Part shown: positions 8,440 to 49,500 of the stretch, piece by piece
Layout: each line of letters begins with the position of its first letter
Position numbering within the stretch: position 1 is the stretch's first letter
Source: Patiria pectinifera
Lineage: Eukaryota > Echinodermata > Asteroidea > Valvatida > Asterinidae
Assembly: GCA_029964075.1 (NCBI GenBank)
Contig: CM057142.1
Coordinates: 38,008,392 to 38,072,391, forward strand
Direction: 5' to 3'
DNA length: 64,000 nt
Notes under the pieces: model-generated
Seen by the model: only the letters and a program-made list of their open reading frames with translations
Databases searched by the model: none
What the model was told of the DNA's origin: nothing
Program-made: the position numbers and the translations under genes

Positions 8440-8750
8440 AATATTTAGAGATATCACTCAATAATTGAAGATTTCTCACAATCGTTTGTAAGACGAATTA
8501 TTTTGATAAATATGTGACATAAGGAAGATCTTTTATTGTCAATGATTTAAAGTATAAATAATTTAAAGATATCTCTAATTCATTTAGAGATATCTCGAAA
8601 TGTTTTAAAGATATCTTTAAATCATTTAAAGATATCTCTAAATCATTCAGAGATATCTCTGAATTGTGGGTTAAATAATCAGACACCTACTTCGTGCATT
8701 CCAAGATTTAAAGATATCTTTAAATATTTAGAGATATCTCTAAATCGGTT
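8440..8750. repeat. Array of GATATC-centred palindromes, left block
   Basis: Short units built around AAAGATATCTTTAAAT and TTAGAGATATCTCTAAAT recur at close spacing. Most units are themselves palindromic. The minus strand reads as a repeated ISLNDLE-type peptide, which is an artefact of the repeat. A second block lies at 8980-9088. Confidence 0.8.
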
Positions 8751-8979
8751 ACGGCTCCGTTGAACCACTGTTTGCACGCTGAAGTCAATCATGTTGCCAT
8801 GACAATGCATGAAGAAATCGCCGGTGTTGCCTGTCAAGTATTGCATTTGAAGTGAATAGTGTTGCCATTTTTTAATATCATAAGTCATCATCGAGGTCGT
8901 CAATAAAATAATTGTATTTACAAAAGCCAATGAAACCAACATTTTAACAATAGGTCAATGCTGCGCAAATTAAAACACG

Positions 8980-9088
8980 ATTTAGAGATATCTGTAAATG
9001 ATATATCTCTAAAAGATTTAGAGATATCTTTAAATGATTAAAAGATATCTCTTAATCTTTTAGAGATATCTTTAAATCATGATATCAT
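8980..9088. repeat. Array of GATATC-centred palindromes, right block
   Basis: This continues the motif of the left block (AGAGATATCTTTAAAT) after a 230-bp non-repetitive spacer. The two blocks may be the ends of one element or one array split by an insertion. Confidence 0.75.
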
Positions 9089-9227
9089 TTAATACATTAC
9101 AGACATCGTCGATAGCACTAAATTGTTTTAAAGACTTTGCTAAATGCTATATAAATGTTACTTTGACTCGCCATAATTATGATTGAGAGGTTTTAGGTCA
9201 ATATTTGAATGTTCAGAGTGAGCAGCG

Positions 9228-20519: not shown

Positions 20520-22340
20520 GACAAGGGTTTCGATCCAACTCGGACCCAAACCAACTCGGACCCAAGCCAACTCGGACCCATGCCAACTCGGACCCACTAC
20601 CAACTCGGACCCACGCCAACTCGGACCCACTACCAACTCGGACCCACGACCAACTCGGACCCACGACCAACTCGGACCCATGCATGACCAACTCGGACCC
20701 ATCGTTTTCAATCATTCGACATCGTTTTCAATCATGCGGCATTTCATAAAGTTTGTCCACTTCTCATCTGTTTACAGTGATGCTGTTTAGTATAAATTTT
20801 CATTGTAATTGTAAGGAAAATTATCTGTATTGCAGCAGTTACATAACATTTTTGTTGTTGTAAAGCACATTGAAATGCTATTTTGAAATGCGCTTTAAAA
20901 GTGTAATAATAATAATAATAATATTGGACATTTATAAAGCGCAAACATATCCACCGGGAGGTGCTCAAGGCGCTATACATAATTGTATACAAGCAAAACA
21001 GCAGCAAAAATAGGTAAACAAAATCAATATGAATTAATAAACAAACTAAACAAATTAAGGTAAGCAACGGAAGAACAGAAAAACAAAATAAACATAAATG
21101 CAAGGGATTAATTGAAAGCTAACGACATAAGGTGAGTTTTGAGAGCTGTTTTGAAGGACTGGATGGTTTCTGAGGTTTTGATGTGAATAGGTAGCCGATT
21201 CCACAAACGAGGTGCTGCTACAGAGAATGACCTGTCTCCCCAAATACGGTGTGATTTTGGCTCATGTAGTAGATGCTTGTTACTGGATCGGAGAGTGCGG
21301 GAGGGTCTGTAAGTGGAAAGCATGTCCATGATGTATGAGGGGGCTTTGCCATTTAGAGCTTAGTAAACCAACAACATCATTTTATAGATTATCTGAGAGG
21401 AGACTGGTAACCAGTGTAGATTTTTCAGGATTGGGGTGATGTGGGAGTAATTAATTATTTATTATTATTATTTGTTTCCATTAAAACATATTGCGCTTTG
21501 AAAGTTTAACCAATTATTTATTTTCATTAAAACATATTAATTGACATCGCTCACGCCATCTTGCTCAATTTAACAGCAATTTATTTCATTTTTAATCCAA
21601 ACTTCAACGTAACAAAATATACAAATTCAGAACAGATATTCATAGAAAATTTTTTAAAAAGTATGGCATTGATTCCATAAACTCTTTCAAACATAACATT
21701 ATTAACTCAATAAATATAAGTAAACATTATAAGTCAATAAATAAAATAAGTCAGATATAAAAACGAAGTCTGTTCTAATCTCTATTTAAAAAAACACCAC
21801 ATAGGCCTATACACCATTGCATACACTGCAAGAAAAACGAAGGTTCCATATTAAACAAAAAAAGTTAAATCAAAAAAGTATAAAAAGTGAAACAGATTCG
21901 TAAAAAAACCCACAAAATTCAAAGCCACCATGTGAATTAAAAAACATCAAAACGATAAGCGTTTAGCAACAGTATACTGTACGCATCATAAAATACCGCT
22001 CCACACAGCGGCAATAAAAGAAAACAACAAAACTAAAAGCCCCATTCTGCCCAATATAATTGCAGAATATCTTCACTCTATAACAATGTAACATTAAGAT
22101 GACCTATAAATATAATCTCTGAAACTAATGATTGAGACATTGTTGGGTCCGAGTTGGTCATGCTTGGGTCCGAGTTTGTAGTGGGTCCGAGTTTGTAGTG
22201 GGTCCGAGTTTGTAGTGGGTCCGAGTTTGTAGTGGGTCCGAGTTGGTAGTGGGTCCGAGTTGGCATGGGTCCGAGTTGGCGTGGGTCCGAGTTAGCATGG
22301 GTCCGACTTGGTTTGGGTCCGAGTTGACCTGATACCCTGA
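20520..22340. mobile_element. Foldback-like element with inverted 17-bp minisatellites
   Basis: The left arm is a tandem array of a 17-bp unit with core AACTCGGACCCA at about 20537-20706. The right arm is the inverse array, core TGGGTCCGAGTT, at about 22144-22331. Outer ends are weakly inverted (CAAGGGTTTCGATCCAACTC against GAGTTGACCTGATACCCTG), and inner ends share CAATCATT. The interior holds a truncated LINE and AT-rich sequence. No clear target duplication was found. Confidence 0.6.
20905..21446 (-). mobile_element. 5'-truncated non-LTR retrotransposon (CR1/L2-like 3' end)
   Basis: The minus strand encodes the C-terminal end of a LINE reverse-transcriptase ORF: HITPILKNLHWLPV near 21444, ALNGKAPSY, then SRTLRSS, DRSFSVAAPRLWNRLP and FKTALKTHL, ending at 21108. 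An in-frame TAA at 21360-21362 shows decay. The 3' UTR ends in a TTA/ATT microsatellite at about 20909-20922, as in many CR1/L2-type elements. Upstream parts of the ORF are missing. Confidence 0.8.
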
Positions 22341-28000: not shown

Positions 28001-28864
28001 TGACCTGGTGAAATCCGCCCGGTGCACGAGTGGCGCGAAAATGTTGCGGTCTCATGAACGAAGAAACACGATTTCAGGCGTGTAGCTCATGTGAACATTT
28101 CCAGCGTATACAACATGCACAATAAACAACCACTGAACTACGGGCTAGCACCGCGCATGCAAAAGCGCACGTGGTATCCTAAAACTACACTAGGCCTTAT
28201 TTTTGTTGCGTGTTCGTCCATTACTAAACCTTTTTCATCCGTGAAATTTTACTTATTTTTCCATCCATAAATGACTCTGAGTCCGCACTCACCAAAAGAC
28301 TTCACTTTGGCACAGAATCATGGAAAAGCTTATGAGTATGCGATGAGAATAGTGCCGATAACGCGGTACGTACATAGGTGACAAATCTGAAGTATTGATT
28401 ATAGAAAATTGGAAAATGATGTCGTAGTACATCATGTGACCGTTTCTAACCAATGAGAAGCTTCAGAACCAGGGAATCCCTTATCGATGCATTGGTTTCT
28501 GCCGTGATGTCACACAATGAGCGGCTCTGTTGGATTTCACCTGTTAGTTTATGCATGCACGGATCCTCTACGGATCCGTGATTTATGTTGGTGAATTCGC
28601 GTAATTTTTGTCGGTAAATTCTGATAGTGCTGTTTGAAAACTGACCCATCCTGGCCTAGCATGCAACCATGCAACAATGGCACTCCACAGAGCGCGCGTA
28701 ATTCCGAACTCAGTGACCTTTCGGACTCAACATTTCCGTACGAAAAGGTGGATCAAGCATAAGTGGGAACGCGTCTTGCGGTTTCGTTGCGGTAAGATAA
28801 CGATCACACCAAAATGCCGGATCTTGATCCACCTTTTCCAATTCAAGTGGGAACGCGGTGCGAG

Positions 28865-30883
28865 ACCGCGGGCTCCCACGGCGCCAAAATCGCTCCACGT
28901 CCGTAGAAAAATGCGGAGGGTGTCTTCCGCCGGGTCGGACACTTCGGGTCGTCCTGATTTTCCCGTACGGACCGGCGATCCGTTTCGTCTATTTTTCGTG
29001 ACTGCATTTTGCGCAGGAATTTGCCGTCGTGTGCGCTTTCACGTTGACTGCCTGGCCGCCCACTGTGCTGGCTTTTTTGCGTGTCTAGACTGTGCGAGGT
29101 CAGCGGCTTCGACGTAGGGGTTCCGTTTGCGTGCTCTACTCGGCCGTTTTGCAAAAGCGTTCACCAGATTGTAGTATGGGGTGACCTTGGTAAAATATTT
29201 TTTCTCCATGGTGCGTGGCCACCAAGTGCCCCTATTGTTTCATATGCTTCGCTTGCCGCCCCTGCGCCGAGTGCAACGAAAAGTCTACACTGCGTAGTAT
29301 TTCCGGGCTATGCAAAACTGTCGATGGCAACGCGTACTGCAGCCTGCTCCACACCCTGGAAACGAGGTTGGGTCTACGGTGCTCGCTATTTGAAGCGCAA
29401 GCATGTGACGTCGCGTGATAGAGTGCTGTTGCTTCCTTAATGTGTTTACAGCTCCATGCTTCCACCACCAAGGCTGAGCGTTGTGAGTTCGCTGCCCGCC
29501 ACGTATAATTCAGTGTCGTGTTATAATTTCGGGGGCCTGTTTGGGGTCAACGAAGGATCGATGCATTGCTTCAAATATCGCGATCTTAAACGCAGTCACA
29601 AAAAAATCGACGGGAACAAGACAGTGTCCGACCCGGCGGAAGACACCCACATTTTTCCACGGACGTGAAGCCGCGGTCTCGGATCCTTTCAGGAGCAAAC
29701 ATTTCTCGGAGGCCGAGTAAAACTTGCTGTTATATAGATGGTTGAACCAACTTCAATAAAAGTTACCGACTTTTTCCTCGCAGACGGTCTCGCAAATTGT
29801 AAGAAGTTCAAGTTTACATTTGTTGAAGAGTCCAATACTGAAACTTAATTATGACCTTCCTCCATGATTCACCGTTTGTAATTTTATGGTAACACTCAAC
29901 ATTTTCATTTCAAATGTTCACGTTTTATTGCATTATGATTTAAACCAGCCTTCGCCTGTGTACTACAGTAACCTTTTCACTACGTTTTCCAAATGCGACT
30001 GCCTCACAAAAAGCCAATTTAACAGACCAACGGCAACATAATTTTACAGACAGTGGCCACGGTACATATGATGTGCGTAAATCAACGGGGGACAGGGGGA
30101 ACCCCCCCCCCCCCCACACACACACACACACATTTTGAGGCGGGGGCATTGTTTGGTCCCCCCCCCCCACACTTTTTCTTCCCCGAATAAAAATATTGTA
30201 GCCTACAATAATGATTCTATTGCTCAGAATATATGTAGCTGATTCAATTACTCCAAACTCAAAACTTTAAAAGATGATCTTTGGTTTTAGTGGTCAGAAA
30301 TTGCCTCAGATCACACCACAGAAATTGCTTTTCTTAACTGCATGTCTCCCAAACTATATCCTCCATTTACATTTAACTCCCCACATTTTCATCCCCAACA
30401 CTACGCCCTATCCGATCTATGATCGGGTAAATCAGCTTGTAGCAAATATTGTTAAAATGACTTGTTTTACATTTTGGGCTTGTAGATGCTGGGAAAAACC
30501 AAGAAAACCATTCACGTTCTTGTAGTCTGGTTCCCTGACCCCACTTAAGATGAAACGGAGAATTTATAGACTTTGGGGAATTGTAAGGTCAGAGAATCAG
30601 TCTAGCAGGCTCGTACCCCGTCACAGGTGTGTAATCAATTGCATAGAGTTTTTGCAGTTTTGCAGCAAAGAGTTTGCAAGCAGTTTTCGAGAAAAAAAAA
30701 CAGTTTTCTCCAACGCTGGTCGGCCGACAAGCTTTGGAAAAATCCTCATACATACAGTATGAGGCTGCAAGGAGGTCTTAAGTTGGTGTGATATTCTGAA
30801 GTGAATTTTACCGACAGAACCAGAACCAGAACATGTATCATATTTACACATATGCTACAAATTAAAGCGATACTGGGTCCTGG
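28865..30883. repeat. Tandem duplication unit 1 (about 2.02 kb)
   Basis: This repeats almost base for base as 30884-32897. It starts at GACCGCGGGCTC and ends in ACTGGGTCCTG. Differences are a few substitutions and changed C/CA run lengths near 30105-30130. It contains the right part of the inverted-repeat element and an adjoining 1.1 kb of non-coding sequence. Confidence 0.9.
29197..29418 (+). CDS. Cys-rich ORF of unknown function (element-encoded candidate)
   Basis: The frame reads a dense C-x2-C series (KCPYCFICFACRPCAECNEK) then about 45 residues to a stop. It has no ATG of its own (GTG or an upstream exon would be needed). Six Cys at three-residue spacing suggest metal binding, but I do not recognise the family. 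The same frame is intact in the tandem copy at 31216-31437. An overlapping frame is also open, so coding status is uncertain. Confidence 0.25.
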   Translation: MFSPWCVATKCPYCFICFACRPCAECNEKSTLRSISGLCKTVDGNAYCSLLHTLETRLGLRCSLFEAQACDVA

Positions 30884-32897
30884 ACCGCGGGCTCACACGG
30901 CGCCAAAATCGCTCCACGTCCGTAGAAAAATGCGGAGGGTGTCTTCCGCAGGGTCGGACACTTCGGGTCGTCCTGATTTTCCCGTACGGACCGGCGATCC
31001 GTTTCGTCTATTTTTCGTGACTGCATTTTGCGCAGGAATTTGCCGTCGTGTGCGCTTTCACGTTGACTGCCTGGCCGCCCACTGTGCTGGCTTTTTTGCG
31101 TGTCTAGACTGTGCGAGGTCAGCGGCTTCGACGTAGGGGTTCCGTTTGCGTGCTCTACTCGGCCGTTTTGCAAAAGCGTTCACCAGATTGTAGTATGGGG
31201 TGACCTTGGTAAAATATTTTTTCTCCATGGTGCGTGGCCACCAAGTGCCCCTATTGTTTCATATGCTTCGCTTGCCGCCCCTGCGCCGAGTGCAACGAAA
31301 AGTCTACACTGCGTAGTATTTCCGGGCTATGCAAAACTGTCGATGGCAACGCGTACTGCAGCCTGCTCCACACCCTGGAAACGAGGTTGGGTCTACGGTG
31401 CTCGCTATTTGAAGCGCAAGCATGTGACGTCGCGTGATAGAGTGCTGTTGCTTCCTTAATGTATTTACAGCTCCATGCTTCCACCACCAAGGCTGAGCGT
31501 TGTGAGTTCGCTGCCCGCCACGTATAATTCAGTGTCGTGTTATAATTTCGGGGGCCTGTTTGGGGTCAACGAAGGATCGATGCATTGCTTCAAATATCGC
31601 GATCTTAAACGCAGTCACAAAAAAATCGACGGGAACAAGACAGTGTCCGACCCGGCGGAAGACACCCACATTTTTCCACGGACGTGAAGCCGCGGTCTCG
31701 GATCCTTTCAGGAGCAAACATTTCTCGGAGGCCGAGTAAAACTTGCTGTTATATAGATGGTTGAACCAACTTCAATAAAAGTTACCGACTTTTTCCTCGC
31801 AGACGGTCTCGCAAATTGTAAGAAGTTCAAGTTTACATTTGTTGAAGAGTCCAATACTGAAACTTAATTATGACCTTCCTCCATGATTCACCGTTTGTAA
31901 TTTTATGGTAACACTCAACATTTTCATTTCAAATGTTCACGTTTTATTGCATTATGATTTAAACCAGCCTTCGCCTGTGTACTACAGTAACCTTTTCACT
32001 ACGTTTTCCAAATGCGACTGCCTCACAAAAAGCCAATTTAACAGACCAACGGCAACATAATTTTACAGACAGTGGCCACGGTACACATGATGTGCGTAAA
32101 TCGACGGGGGACAGGGGGAACCCCCCACACACACACACACACACACATTTTGAGGCGGGGGCATTGTTTGGTCCCCCCCCCCCACTTTTTCTTCCCCGAA
32201 TAAAAATATTGTAGCCTACAATAATGATTCTATTGCTCAGAATATATGTAGCTGATTCAATTACTCCAAACTCAAAACTTTAAAAGATGATCTTTGGTTT
32301 TAGTGGTCAGAAATTGCCTCAGATCACACCACAGAAATTGCTTTTCTTAACTGCATGTCTCCCCAACTATATCCTCCATTTACATTTAACTCCCCACATT
32401 TTCATCCCCAACACTACGCCCTATCCGATCTATGATCGGGTAAATCAGCTTGTAGCAAATATTGTTAAAATGACTTGTTTTACATTTTGGGCTTGTAGAT
32501 GCTGGGTTAAACCAAGAAAACCATTCACGTTCTTGTAGTCTGGTTCCCTGACCCCACTTAAGATGAAACGGAGAATTTATAGACTTTGGGGAATTGTAAG
32601 GTCAGAGAATCAGTCTAGCAGGCTCGTACCCCGTCACAGGTGTGTAATCAATTGCATAGAGTTTTTGCAGTTTTGCAGCAAAGAGTTTGCAAGCAGTTTT
32701 CGAGAAAAAAAAACAGTTTTCTCCAACGCTGGTCGGCCGACAAGCGTTGGAAAAATCCTCATACATACAGTATGAGGCTGCAAGAAGGTCTTAAGTTGGT
32801 GTGATATTCTGAAGTGAATTTTACCGACAGAACCAGAACCAGAACATGTATCATATTTACACATATGCTACAAATTAAAGCGATACTGGGTCCTGGA
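30884..32897. repeat. Tandem duplication unit 2 (about 2.01 kb)
   Basis: Second copy of 28865-30883 at an offset of about 2,019 bp. It holds the right-hand remnant of the element without its left end. Beyond 32760 the sequence continues as the segmental duplication shared with 43629 onward. Confidence 0.9.
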
Positions 32898-34660
32898 AAC
32901 AGCCCAACTATATAGGCTACAAAACGCGCTTTGAACAAGATGATGTTAATTGGAAATAACATTTAAAGTAGGATATAAACATCCACACAACTATCCTTTA
33001 AACACTGGTTTTTTGGTGTTATTCCTGTATTATGCTTGCGAGAACGAATTTCGGGGTCCACTTTTTGCGACCCCATAAATTCGAGCTGTTAATTTGATGC
33101 TTGTTGGGATTTCATTCGTAAATAGGGTGCAGTGAACTAATTCAAGTGAGAATTTCTACGCCGGGTGATTAGCATAAAAAGTGACCCCACAATTTTCTTT
33201 GGCTTTAAAAACGGTGGAATTGTGTACATATAGCCAAGGATCAACTCCCTGGTTTGTGGGCTTCCAACTGAGGGCAGGCTTGATAAAATTACGATTGAAA
33301 AATGGGTCCTATTTGCCTGTGAAAGTGGAAGGATGCCACTTGTAAAACGGCTACATGCAGACTTGGGAACTATCACTTTTTGGGAGGTGATTTTGTTTTG
33401 GTGTGAATATTTAAAAATGTAATCGGCTACCCAAAATTCAAAGGAATGAAAACATGAAGGACAAGACAATACTTTAATTTTTGTTTGAGAAACCCCAGTG
33501 ATGTTAGTTTGCATGTTATTTGGCCCAGAACTTTGTTAATTTTACACTGTTTTCAATATTGAATTGGTTCAGTGCACCCTAAAGTGTTCGCCTTTTGCGG
33601 ACGTTGAAGAAACCAACGCATTGGTGTTTGATGTGAAGCGGGATTTTTCGTCTTATGACATTCTTATTCTTTCAACCAGATGTTTGAAATATAGGCTAAG
33701 CTGTAAGCATATAGAGCAAGCTCTATGGGCTAAGTAAACAATCTAAAATATGAAATTTTCGGGGATTTCAGGACCTAGTGCACCTTTAACGTAGACTAGC
33801 CCCAACCATCCCTCATTGTCCATGAACAAAGTTTAAGCAAGTACTAGATATACCTCAATAGGCTTAAACACATACCTTGTAAGCACTTGACTTAGAAGAA
33901 CAACTGACCACTTTTCTATTTAAACGTGCCTCCCAAAATCCACCGTTGTCTGGATAATTATGAATGGTCATCAACACGAGATAACCACTTAGGAGGTGTT
34001 TGCGCAGTAACCACCAGAACCAGAACACTTCAGCACCGCAGCCTGTGAAGCCAAGTTGTTTCCCCGTACACGCAGTGGTCTGTAATGCTGACATGCTGAC
34101 CTAACGTGACCTCTAAAAGAGGCAATAATACATGGCCGATCAGTACGTTGGGTAGCAAGGTCAATGTTATGGGGGAAGTTAGATACAAAAAAAAAGGTGA
34201 AAAGGGCACTCGCCCACATGGACGTCGCCAGGATTTTTGTCTAGAGGTAGGCAAAACATATTTTTTTCCCCAAAAATTCTTGTATTTCTCAACAAATTCT
34301 CGATTTATCAGTTTTAGAGGGGGGCAGGGACATTATGCCCCCCCCCCCATTCATTAAATTTACACCACTATGACTTCGCGCCTCTTTTTCTTTTCTTTTT
34401 TTCTCTTATTTTTTTCTTCTTTTTTGAGGGTTCTTTTCCCTGGGGGGGGGGGGCAGCGCCCCCCTTTGCATCCCTTCCCTCGCGACGTCCATGCTCGCCC
34501 TTCATTGACAGGGTTTGTTCACCGGTCACTTGGCGTCCGTAAAATCAACATTTTTCTATGGGGGCACTGTTCAAACCGGACGATTATAGGTATAGCGTTT
34601 TTAGGGCCGCACGTTCACGCCAAATTCACAAACGTGTAATCGTAACGAAAGGACGCTGGT
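32757..34660. repeat. Segmental duplication shared with 43629-45217 and 47623-47700
   Basis: Ordered near-identical blocks include TACAGTATGAGGCTGC, GCGAGAACGAATTTCGGGG, CAAGGATCAACTCCCTGG and GAGATAACCACTTAGGAGG. No gene is recognisable within it. A hAT-like MITE (34217-34493) is present only in this copy. A foldback element is present only in the other copy. Confidence 0.85.
34217..34493. mobile_element. hAT-like MITE, CATGGACGTCGC family
   Basis: The ends are CATGGACGTCGCCAGG and CGCGACGTCCATG. The flanks are CTCGCCCA (34209-34216) and CTCGCCCT (34494-34501). The paralogous site at about 45108-45118 reads GCACTCGCCCATCATTG without the element, a natural empty site. Confidence 0.88.
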
Positions 34661-43628: not shown

Positions 43629-45217
43629 TTATCCTCATACATATACAGTATGAGGCTGCAAGGATGAAGGTCTTAAGTTGGTGTGATATTCTGAAGTGAA
43701 TTTTACCGACAGAACCAGAACTGGAACCAGAACATGTATACCCATATGTTACAAATTAAAGGGACACTGGGTCCTGGAAACAGCACAATTAGGCTACAAA
43801 ACGCGCTTTGAACGAGATGATGTTAATTGGAGATAACATTTAAAAGTAGGATATTAACATCCACACAACTATCCTTTTAAAACTGGGCGTTTTTGTGTTA
43901 TTCCTGTATTATGCTTGCGAGAACGAATTTCGGGGTCCACTTTTTGCGACCCCATAAATTCGAGCTGTTAATTGGATGCTTGTTGTGATTTCATTCGTAA
44001 TTAGGGTGCAGTAAACTAATTCAAGTGAGAATTTCTGCGCCAGCTGATTAGCATAAAAAGTGACCCCACAATTTCTTTTATAAAAGGAGACCGTTTGGCT
44101 TTGAAAACGGTGGAATTGTGTACATATAGCCAAGGATCAACTCCCTGGTTTTTGGACTTCCATCTGAGGGCAGGCTTGATAAAATTACGGTTGAAAACTG
44201 GGTCCTATGGAAAGTGGAAGGATGCCACTTGCAAAATGGCTATTACATGCAGACTTGGGAACTACCACTGGAGGTGATTTTGTTTGGGTGTGAATATTTA
44301 AAAATGTAATCGGCTACCCAAAATTGAAAAGAAATGAAAACATGAAGGACAAGACAATAATTTAATTTTTGTTTGAGAAACCCCAGTGATGTCGGTTTGC
44401 ATGTTATTTGGCCCTGAACTTTGTTAATTTTGCACTGTTTTCAATGGGGCTTGAATTGGTTCAGTGCACCCTAAAGTGTTCGCCTTTTGCGGACGTTGAA
44501 GAAACCACATTTTTCTCATCGGTGTCCGATGTGAAGTGGGGTTTTTCGTCTTTTCTCGGGAACGTTAAGACGTTCTTTCAACCAGACGTTTGAAATAGGC
44601 TAAACATATAGAGCAAGCTCTATGGACTATGTAAACAATCCAAAACATGACATTTTCGGGGATTTCAGGACCTAGTGCCCCTTAGTAGACTAGCCCCAAT
44701 CATCCATCATTGTCCATGAACAAAGTATAAGTAAGTATTAGATAGGCTTAAATACATACCTCGTATCTTGAAGCACTTGACTTTGAAGAACAACTGACCA
44801 CTTTTCTGAAAGTATGAAACGTGCCTCCCAAAATCCACCGCTGTCTGGATAATTATGAATGGTCATCAACACGAGATAACCACTTAGGAGGTGTTTGCGC
44901 AGTAACCACCAGAACCAGAACACTTCAGCACCGCACCCTGTGAAGCCAAGTTGGTTCCCCGTACACGCAGTGGTCTGTAATGCTGACATGCTGACCTAAC
45001 GTGACCTTCAAAAGAGGCAAAAATACATGGCCGATCAGTACGTGGCGTAGCAAGATCAATTTTATGGGGGGGGGGGTGTTAGATAAATAAAAAAAAAAGG
45101 TGAAAAGGGCACTCGCCCATCATTGAAAGGGTTTGTTCACCGGTCACTTGGCCTCCGTAAAATCAACGTTTTTCTATGGGGGCACTGTTCAAACCGGACG
45201 ATTATATGACTGTATAG
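43629..45217. repeat. Segmental duplication, partner of 32757-34600
   Basis: Same ordered blocks as 32757-34600 but without the hAT-like MITE. It breaks off at the foldback element and resumes for about 80 bp at 47623. Confidence 0.85.
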
Positions 45218-45257
45218 TACGGTGGCTCATATTCGCCAATTTGTTGCGCAAGTCCCT

Positions 45258-45640
45258 TTTCCTTATGGCGTTATATCGCCGTACTATTGCGTTATAACAC
45301 CGTACTATTACGTTATAACGCCGTACTATTGCGTTATAACGCCGTACTATTGCGTTATAACGCCGTATTATTGCGTTATAACGCCGTACTATTGCGTTAT
45401 AACGCCGTACTATTGCGTTATAACGCCGTACTATTGCGTTATAACGCCGTACTATTGCGTTATAACGCCGTACTATTGCGTTATAACGCCGTACTATTGC
45501 GTTATAACGCCGTACTATTGCGTTATAACGCCATATTTTATTGCGTTATAACGCCATATTTTATTGCGTTATAACGCCGTATTTTATTGCCTTATATCGC
45601 CGTATTAATTGCGTTATAACGCCGTATTTTTTGTGTTATA
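45258..45640. repeat. 21-bp minisatellite, left arm
   Basis: About 14 to 16 units of a 21-bp repeat. Each contains the palindrome GCGTTATAACGC followed by CGTACTATT. Later units degenerate to CATATTTTATT. Confidence 0.9.
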
Positions 45641-46767
45641 CCATTTGGTTACTACGAAAGCCTACGGAAGCCCATTAGCGCCACTGGAAGTATATATGTT
45701 ACAGACTATTTAATTCGTTATTACGGATTATTAATTCGTTCTTACGGATTATTTAATTCGTTATTACGAAATAAATCTGGTACTCACACGCGGAGAGCAC
45801 GTGATCAAAATGCACTGAGTCCTGGATAGGGTTTAATCAAAATGCAACATTTCGGGAACAAATCCCCAGCCTTGTCTCAAAGCATAGTATCACCGACCCT
45901 GATCACAAAATGGCCGGTCTTAAATTTCGCTAAATCAGACGAAGGCCCATTGGCGGCATGCGGCAAAATTTAACAAGATCAAACCAACTAGCATTAGCTT
46001 GGAACTTGTAGATTGTGGAAAAAAAATTAAGAGTGATTAGATCAGACTTATTAACTTAAAACTTGCGCAAAAAGCACAGGGGGCATGGCCTTTACGCTCA
46101 CCTTTTCTTTTTCGCTCCTACCCTTGCGACACAACGGCAGAGAGAAAAAACAGCTTGTAATGGTGCCTTGGCACTTGTGAAATATGAAATTATGAATAAA
46201 GAGTGATTTTAGGTCCGAATAATTAACTTAAGAGCGGTGCAAAATACGGAGGGGGAGGAAGCGCAACCCCCTCCATGTTCATTTTTTCCCCTTATATCAT
46301 CGCAAAGCACTTTTTAAATCCTGCCAAGTTTCTCTGACCGTTGTTCGGATGTCCTGTGGTTATTTTGACACCACGTTATGTAAATAGGGCATACTCTCGT
46401 CGCAAAATGTCCATTTACCAAACAGGTCGTGAGGTCGGCTTAAATGTTATCTTTTCCCATCACATTGACCATGTTTAATTTACATGAGAGTGCGCATGAG
46501 ATCGAGAGTGCTGACTTTTTAATGACCATGACAACAAATCATTTTAACAGGTTGAATTGAAACTTCATACATGTACTAGAGATATTTGGGTTTCTTTTCA
46601 AATAATTTCAGATGTGGGAGGAGCATATCAGACCTCTGGCACCCTGGGATGGGTCAATTAACTTTGTATACAAACTTATATCATTTATATTCTTCAAAAC
46701 GCCAGCTTTTCGTGAAGTGCAAAGGATGGATATTGCAACTATTAACTCTCATGATTATAAATTCAGA

Positions 46768-47031
46768 CATGGGCGTCGCCAGGATTTTTTCTAGAGGGGG
46801 GCAAAAAAAAAATTTCGCCAAAAAATGCTTGTATTTCTCAATATATTATCGATTTATCAGTTTGAGAGGGGGGCAGGGACATTTTGCCCCCCCCCAACTC
46901 ATTAAATTAACACCACTTTGTCTTCGCGCCTCTTTTTGTTTTCTTTTTTTTCCTTTTTTTTTTTTTTTTTTTTTTGCTTTTCCAGGGGGGGGGCAAGTGC
47001 CCCCCCTTGCCCCCCCCTCGCGACGCCCATG
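46768..47031. mobile_element. hAT-like MITE, CATGGGCGTCGC family (best copy)
   Basis: 264 bp with perfect inverted ends CATGGGCGTCGC and GCGACGCCCATG. It is flanked by a perfect 8-bp duplication AATTCAGA (46760-46767, 47032-47039). It is nested in the foldback element. Confidence 0.92.
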
Positions 47032-47349
47032 AATTCAGACAAGAAAGGAAAACAAAGAGAAAAAAAGCAAAGAAAAAGAGGCGCCAATTTTGCATTAAAT
47101 TTAATGGGTTTGGGGGGATGACCCTGTCCCCTCTAAAAAAATAAATAGAGAATAAACGGTTGAGAAATATGCTTTGCCCCCCTCTTAAAAAAAAATCAAT
47201 CCGTATTAACGAATTAAATAATCCGTAAAAACGAATTAATAATCCGTAATAACGAATTAAATAATCTGTAACATATATACTTGCAGTGGCGCTAAAATGG
47301 GCTTTCGTAGTGTAGCATTTCAAAATGGCGACGTCACTGTTGATTTTCG

Positions 47350-47580
47350 ACGTTAAGAGTACGGCGTTATAACGCCATAGTACCGCGATATAACGCCATA
47401 GTACGGCGATACTAACGCCATCATACGGCGATATAACGCAATAAAATACGGCGTTATAACGCAATAAAATACGGCGTTATAACGCAATAAAATACGGCGT
47501 TATATCGCCATAGTACGGCGATATAACGCCATAATACGGCGATATAACGCCATAGTACGGCGATATAACGCCATAAGAAA
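47350..47580. repeat. 21-bp minisatellite, right arm
   Basis: Inverse orientation of the left array, with variant units containing GCGATATAACGCC as well as GCGTTATAACGC. Confidence 0.88.
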
Positions 47581-47696
47581 AAAAGGACATGCGCAACAAA
47601 TTGGCGAATACGAGCCACCGTAGTATAGCGTTTTAGGGTGGCACGGCGTTCACGCGAAATTCACAAAAGTGTATTCGTAACGAAAGGGCGCTGGAA

Positions 47697-47880
47697 GGCA
47701 CTTAAAGCTATAGTCCATCATTTGCAGCAATCTGAAAAGTAACTGGCGTAATGATTGTTGAAAAACATGCTTGGTTGAAAGAAAGTAAGTGGACTAAACT
47801 CCCTGTGAAATTATTCTTTCTGGCAAGCTGTCATTTTGAAGTAATCAACGAAAGAAGGCCTTTCCAACGGTGCGTCTTAA
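47697..47880. repeat. Dispersed repeat shared with the P450 3' end
   Basis: CTTAAAGCTATAGTCCATC, GAAAAACATGCTTGGTTGAAAG, ACTAAACTCCCTG and GGCAAGCTGTCATTTT occur in the same order at 56017-56190. It ends in a CGGTGCGTCTTAAGACGCACCG palindrome. Confidence 0.8.
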
Positions 47881-47889
47881 GACGCACCG

Positions 47890-49500
47890 TAGGAAAAAAC
47901 TGCTGATTAAATTTCATGAAACCGAAATTGTTCACAGAGGTTAAATAGCGAGTATTAATAAGGTAAAAGTACCAGTATGTTACTGCATGAATTTGAGGTG
48001 TGTCACCAAAGAGGTTTGGCAACACTGCACGCCGGGAAAGTCGGGTAAACGTCGAAGTGCGTCACCTTAGGGAACACCACCATATACATGTACACTGATT
48101 GTCGCCCCACAGATTGCAGTAAACACAGCCCTGCAATATTTTTCTTTATTTTGGCACACACCCACACACACACACGTTTGTTTGTGGTGTAAATCGAGGA
48201 TTTCCTATTGTTCTTCATCATCGATCTTTTGTTCCTACACTACTTGTGTGCCCCGTAAATCTTGAAATATTTTATATGAGGAAGACCCGTAAATTGGAAC
48301 AAGTCTCGATCAAGCGAGCTGGGTTCGGAAGTTTGATTGGAGAGGCTTTGCACATTCTGATTGTTGGTTGTCTAATTGTGTGCCCCGCAAATCCTTCTTT
48401 TTTTGCAAAACAGCTTCCATTGGGTTTTTACACGTTTCTAATCTAGGACGTCCTCGATTTGACTCCTGTCCTCAATTACTGAAGGATGTTTCGCAATGTG
48501 TGTCCTCGATTACCCCATTAACAAACCCACCCTTTCATCTTTATAGTACAGCGGTAAATGTGTTGGCCTGGTAGTATACCTCTAAATTAAGTTCACTTTG
48601 TGGCACTTTCTAGTGTAAAAATTGAAAAAAAATATTGAAAATGGGACTGACACCTGGAACGAGGCTAATTAAGAAAACTCATATCTTCCTTTTTGAGAAT
48701 TTTGTTGCCTAGAGACTAAGTTGGCCTGCTTCTTGTCTCTTTGTTTCTTTCTTTTTTCCTTTTTTTTCTCTCCAGTTTTACACTCTGCATTCGGAATTAT
48801 TTTCCAAAAGTAATACCTTCGTGGGTTTCAACTGTGTATATTAACGATCACTGCAGACAGTGGAAAAAGTGCGTCAGGATAAATGGAATATCATGAAAAA
48901 TATCAAGCAGAAACTGAGCCCACCAGGGCTAACACTTTTTTCAGACTGGTCTTCCAGTGTCGCGTCGAACCAAATTATTCTGAAACTTTGAATGAAGTAG
49001 AATGTTAATATATTGAGAAATGTTAAATACTTTTTTATTGGGGGAGAGTCTTTTGTGTGAATCAGTCGCGAGGAATACAAGGACAGCGAGTACGATAAAC
49101 CAAACAGCTCCATCGTAGTTTCAGTTTACCGAAAAACGCGAACCATTCGGAAATATAAAGGACGACGACTGCGGCATGATGATGACAAATCTTATGGACG
49201 TCAGAAATTCGAAGGGCTGGAGATACTGTTTGTAATCCGAGGTGGCGCTGTTCAATTCAGTGTAGTTTGTGACTACGTTTGCTTTACGTCCATTCTGGGT
49301 AGTTTGCATTGATTGTGAAGAGGTATAAAGTTCACTCTGTCAGTGCTTATATTTTCACTGATAGTGTCTACTGAAATAATTATCCACGTCGAGCCTAAAG
49401 TTCACAACTGATAATCTCTATACGATAGTGGATCTGTCACCTGACTATAAAGCTCCCTTCCTTTACCAACTCACGAATTAAAATGTCACGGTAAAGGAGA
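47890..49500. other. Segmental duplication then intergenic sequence
   Basis: 47908-48776 pairs with 37637-38478. From 48777 to 49500 no supported gene is seen. Confidence 0.5.

Follow-up and report, generated by a model that had tools for sequence, protein, structure and literature searches.

A foldback-like transposable element of Patiria pectinifera, probably of the IS3EU/GingerRoot type

A 2.4-kb insertion with long, internally repetitive inverted arms lies in the window, the 64,000-nucleotide stretch of Patiria pectinifera DNA analysed here (G000:C14:38008392-38072391, from a 613.5-Mb assembly of 1,020 contigs). We consider it a DNA transposon of the IS3EU/GingerRoot type that is non-autonomous, carries foldback-like arms and moves in trans by cut-and-paste, and we put the probability of this reading at roughly 0.8. 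The IS3EU name is used because of the termini, the target duplication and one broken gene. PMC10045372 treats IS3EU and GingerRoot as one lineage and describes complete IS3EU families as having "always" TA..TA termini and duplications that are "usually 6 bp"; the recurrence of these two published marks here points to an IS3EU-type element.

Foldback elements are defined by their shape, and the enzymes that move them are often unknown. Should the IS3EU link prove right, an integrase-like superfamily would be among those in which the foldback shape arose, which would favour the idea that subterminal arrays of sites are selected for transposase capture and not inherited. Long and close inverted arms may also be candidates for local inversions and for palindrome instability.

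Element structure and copies in the genome

An earlier note on this DNA claimed a 2.4-kb element with inverted ends and GTATAG flanks, and its coordinates proved exact, with 33-bp ends that differ at a single position (Table 1). The 21-bp palindrome-bearing array that it placed at each end was recovered as well: Tandem Repeats Finder reports one at 45264-45626 (17.0 copies, 94% matches) and another at 47360-47576 (10.0 copies, 88% matches), in inverted orientation to each other, and a site-by-site reading gives unit steps of 21 to 23 bp. All 16 exact occurrences of GCGTTATAACGC in the window fall within the element. The architecture is foldback-like, tandem repeats making up most of the long inverted arms. 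The element's open frames of 110 aa or more, counted stop to stop, either fall on the arrays or overlap the nested 264-bp element, and tblastn with the transposase frames of a related copy (L014, below) gave 0 matches in the window, the element's core included.

Table 1. Features of the element and of the unoccupied paralogous site, in window coordinates
Feature	Position	Strand	Remarks
Complete element	45218-47622		2,405 bp; insertion flanked by 6-bp direct repeats GTATAG
Left target-site duplication GTATAG	45212..45217	+	Identical to 47623-47628
Left terminal inverted repeat, 33 bp, starts TACGGTGGCTC	45218..45250	+	32/33 identical to right end
Left outer array, 17 units of 21-23 bp, palindrome GCGTTATAACGC or near form in each unit	45268..45631	+	First site centre 56.5 bp from end
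Left inner inverted arm, 22-bp repeats (TTACGGATTATTTAATTCGTTA)	45675..45768	+	96% complementary to 47202-47295
Core common to four other copies	45769..46767	.	Element positions 552-1550; 89-94% BLAST identity with L005, L006, L007 and L009
Nested 264-bp inverted-repeat element, CATGGGCGTCGC...GCGACGCCCATG	46768..47031	+	8-bp duplication AATTCAGA; foreign to the original element
Right inner inverted arm, 22-bp repeats	47202..47295	-	Partner of 45675-45768
Right outer array, 10 units of 21-23 bp	47360..47576	-	Tandem Repeats Finder and site-by-site reading
Right terminal inverted repeat, 33 bp, ends GAGCCACCGTA	47590..47622	-	32/33 identical to left end
Right target-site duplication GTATAG	47623..47628	+	Identical to left flank 45212-45217
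Single GTATAG, unoccupied paralogous site	34590..34595	+	Adjacent 4-5 bp differ from filled site

Genome-wide, exact GCGTTATAACGC occurs 357 times, while the same pattern read backwards, as a control, occurs 11 times. Copies were drawn from the 50 palindrome places listed out of these 357, which fall in nine regions, all of which were examined. Among the matches listed, six of the nine regions hold seven further complete elements, and these belong to two subfamilies. The window's kind, family 1, comprises the window element, L005, L006, L007 and L009; subfamily 2, with ends TACGGTGGCTGATTTCCGCC, comprises L008 and a nested pair of elements in L013. The L012 region has one end and about 20 array sites, and the L011/L014 region has one end together with a transposase. 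L010 was rejected as an element, since it has a single palindrome and no ends. Should the first 50 places be typical, some tens of such loci would be expected in the genome, a figure that is an extrapolation and not a count. The possibility that the ends occur only in the window can be set aside, as they are also present elsewhere, flanked by 6-bp target duplications, and the description of the element as mobile and foldback-like is borne out by internally repetitive inverted ends and duplications at these further loci.

Beyond the shared core (Table 1), the 22-bp inner-arm unit (TTACGGATTATTTAATTCGTTA) is also present in L005, L006, L007 and L009; it is absent from L008 and both L013 elements, and the window core has no BLAST match in those three. 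What the two subfamilies have in common is 19 of the first 26 terminal bases and the array, and not the core. Over the aligned columns of family 1, corrected distances for the ten pairs of copies span 3.2-5.9%, and the window copy stands 3.0% from the five-copy majority. Such low divergence among copies at unrelated loci suggests that the family moved fairly recently.

Two of the regions hold nested structures. In L005, the family-1 copy harbours at L005:590-3390 an insertion of another kind of long-inverted-repeat element, with GAGCGTGGACACTTAT arms whose longest inverted pair measures 282 nt. This insertion accounts for the 4,753-bp size of L005, which was considered as an autonomous copy and rejected, tblastn with the L014 transposase frames giving 0 matches. 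At L013:1313-2607 one subfamily-2 element lies inside another, and the inner one, of 546 bp, consists almost entirely of palindrome array and is flanked by GAATTC duplications.

Readings outside the realm of transposons were also rejected. The whole window gave 0 Rfam matches at the gathering score, which speaks against an RNA gene. A permissive Rfam search of 44500-48500 returned 12 matches, 11 of them to microRNA models; none of the 12 reached the gathering score, and all lie on the palindromic arrays, with one overrunning by 4 bp. No tRNA was found. A phage origin was discarded, as a search of the phage collection with the left arm gave no match.

Termini, target duplications and a transposase-bearing relative

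All eight complete elements, the window's included, have TACGGT...ACCGTA termini, and hence the TA..TA ends of IS3EU/GingerRoot. An exact 6-bp target duplication flanks seven of the eight, and in L006 five of the six bases agree. Duplication lengths of 3-5 and 7-10 bp give no exact fit in any of the eight elements. When flanks were paired between different elements as a control, the mean match was 2.4 of 6, with a full match in 1 of 56 pairings.

The earlier note called the mobilising enzyme unknown. The field is now narrowed by a related copy, L014 on contig C5, although no transposase was found with the window element's own ends, and the nine regions from the matches listed include no autonomous copy bearing those ends. 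At C5:1619650 stands a subfamily-2 end, CTACGGTGGCTGATTTCCGCC, partly doubled, followed at 1619760-1619885 by six palindrome sites (three exact, three with one mismatch). Open frames from 1620927 and 1621156 lie on the same strand as this end and array, about 1.3 kb from the end. The 120-aa frame from 1621156 scores above the cut-off of Pfam rva_4, the "Integrase core domain", at 9e-14. The 151-aa frame from 1620927 has a weak match to the NCBIfam IS3 transposase NF033516 (0.0071; 15.6 bits against a cut-off of 160) and no Pfam match above the cut-off, only Peptidase_M3 at 0.066, below it. We take rva_4 to stand for IS3EU-type enzymes.

This transposase copy is broken and is a single case, from subfamily 2; it is tied to the window element by terminus and array alone. 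The stretch from the array to the gene seems to be broken up by another repeat, and two loose patterns, applied up to C5:1630000, did not recognise the 3' end of the element. Searching with phmmer at E up to 1 found no solved structure for the transposase, and the predicted structure of the 120-aa fragment, at a pLDDT of 41.5, is too poor to use. Taken with this copy, the resemblance to IS3EU/GingerRoot comprises TA..TA termini, 6-bp duplications and, putatively, an integrase-core transposase, here a broken one in a related copy; the difference lies in the foldback-like arms with dense palindromic arrays, which go unmentioned for IS3EU in the available excerpts of PMC10045372.

The palindromic arrays

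The offset of the palindromes from the ends is nearly fixed. In family 1, the centre of the first palindrome lies 56.5 bp from the end at nine of ten ends and 57.5 bp from it at the remaining one. Of the 98 steps between palindromes, 94 are 21 or 23 bp, and the others are 20, 22, 43 and 44 bp. In subfamily 2, the first centre lies 50.5-53.5 bp from the end (six ends), and the arrays are less regular, with a recurrent 28-bp step and larger gaps.

Because of their palindromy, their nearly fixed offset, their spacing of about two helical turns and their persistence in both subfamilies, we predict that the palindromes are binding sites for transposase dimers, a proposal we judge somewhat better than even. 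An IS3EU-type transposase made elsewhere would recognise the terminus and would bind the 12-bp palindromes as a dimer; as most palindromes are 21 or 23 bp apart, successive dimers would sit on nearly one face of the helix. Multiple sites may help to pair the two element ends, and the enzyme would cut at TA and join the element to its target with a 6-bp stagger, while the arrays would grow and shrink through slippage or unequal exchange. An experimental precedent comes from Galileo, where the THAP domain of the transposase has binding sites within the tandem repeats (PMC3688188, in excerpt). A palindromic site with two-turn spacing makes a direct biochemical prediction.

It is tempting to speculate further that IS3EU in this animal uses a polymeric end, in which each arm would carry a phased row of up to 17 palindromic transposase sites, spaced by about two helical turns, and the transposase would coat these rows to pair the arms; some members would be almost only such sites, like the 546-bp element of L013. 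We hold this tentatively, with doubt slightly the stronger. If it is true, a further superfamily would have foldback arms, beside Mutator and P, and the role of the arms in end synapsis would be testable. We found no description of foldback-like IS3EU elements in the literature searched, which left Repbase entries and most subscription papers outside. Among the literature matches listed, none concerned IS3EU in an echinoderm or amphioxus, and none IS3EU with subterminal or tandem transposase-binding sites. The oyster satellite survey of PMC8268682, as excerpted, has a table that annotates two satellites as IS3EU.

An alternative that we think rather unlikely, though far from negligible, keeps the IS3EU-type termini and makes the arrays unrelated to transposition, either as passively expanding satellite-like repeats or as sites for a host DNA-binding protein. 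Array length does vary from copy to copy and, within a copy, from arm to arm, the site-rich L012 region yielded one end, and the looser spacing of subfamily 2 also fits such an origin. It accounts less well for a palindrome that has been kept in both subfamilies despite their unshared core, at both ends and at a nearly fixed offset, for the regular steps of family 1, and for a motif that the reversed control indicates to be otherwise rare.

The paralogous site, other foldback systems and neighbouring repeats

The segmental paralogue at 34590 was said in the earlier note to lack the element and so to prove insertion. The element is indeed absent there and GTATAG is single, but proof is too strong a word, since the adjacent 4-5 bp differ. 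Positions 34494-34588 match 45112-45206 (95.8%) and 34590-34659 match 47623-47694 (86.3%), and the unoccupied site reads ATTATAG-GTATAGCG, against ATTATATGACT-GTATAG, the element and GTATAGCG at the filled site. With that difference, the site alone neither proves insertion nor excludes excision; it is the target duplications at other loci that establish insertion. We regard it as fairly improbable that 34590 is an excision footprint, where loss of the element was accompanied by deletion of 10 bp lying between two copies of TATA. The sequence ATTATAG-GTATAG does equal the two flanks of the filled site joined, minus 10 bp bounded by TATA, but an unoccupied site with one small indel is an equally simple account, and the literature examined, seen as excerpts, describes no excision footprints for the IS3EU superfamily.

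Kinship to the TU elements of sea urchins had also been suggested and is not supported, given the 6-bp duplications in seven of eight elements, the TA..TA termini and the IS3EU marks. TU elements have tandemly repeated outer inverted domains, built of 15-bp units, and make 8-bp duplications. Compared by description, the likeness is in the repeated outer inverted domains, and the duplication length speaks against kinship. That the window element is a TU element or a foldback of the Mutator or P type (like FB, Tetris or Galileo), mobilised by the corresponding kind of transposase, is very improbable: the architecture is the same, with long repetitive inverted arms and a middle without a found transposase, and most foldbacks seem to be Mutator, although some, Galileo in P for one, are exceptions (PMC4079207, in excerpt), but the exact 6-bp duplications match neither the 8-10 bp of Tetris (PMC4079207, in excerpt) nor the 7 bp of Galileo (PMC3573991, in excerpt), the termini are TA..TA, and the sole associated transposase matches rva_4 and, weakly, IS3.

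Some likenesses to these systems are nonetheless close. Tetris-like foldbacks, as excerpted from PMC4079207, share long inverted arms, a variable non-coding middle and non-autonomous copies with the elements described here, and differ in duplication length. Galileo, of the P superfamily in Drosophila, shares long inverted arms whose tandem repeats contain secondary sites for the transposase (PMC3688188, in excerpt), sites that are predicted here, and arm length that varies by repeat number (PMC3573991, in excerpt); it differs, in a comparison by description, in its duplications and its P-type THAP transposase (PMC3688188 and PMC3573991, in excerpt).

The 264-bp segment at 46768-47031 is a later insertion into the main element and is missing from L005, L006, L007 and L009, which show a gap near element positions 1551-1812. 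It has a relative at 34217-34493, with flanks CTCGCCCA/CTCGCCCT that are 7/8 alike. The window thus holds two such short inverted-repeat copies, with CATGGGCGTCGC or CATGGACGTCGC ends and 8-bp duplications, one exact and one 7/8.

Other repeats are present in the window. A second foldback-like structure occupies 20535-22326, where inverted 17-bp arrays (CCAACTCGGACCCACTA; 89% over 185 bp) surround about 1.4 kb, and no clear target duplication was seen there by eye. Inverted, internally palindromic 21-bp arrays of the TTTAGAGATATCTCTAAA type at 8541-9107 are possibly another repeat-armed element, and 28864-32897 is a 2.0-kb tandem duplication of 99.1% identity. Self-BLAST and open frames indicate at least five similar cyclase-family exons, at 9.5, 12.2, 18.2, 25.7 and 39.6 kb, with the Pfam assignment (PF04199) tested at 9.5 kb only, and a P450 exon lies at 52.3 kb.
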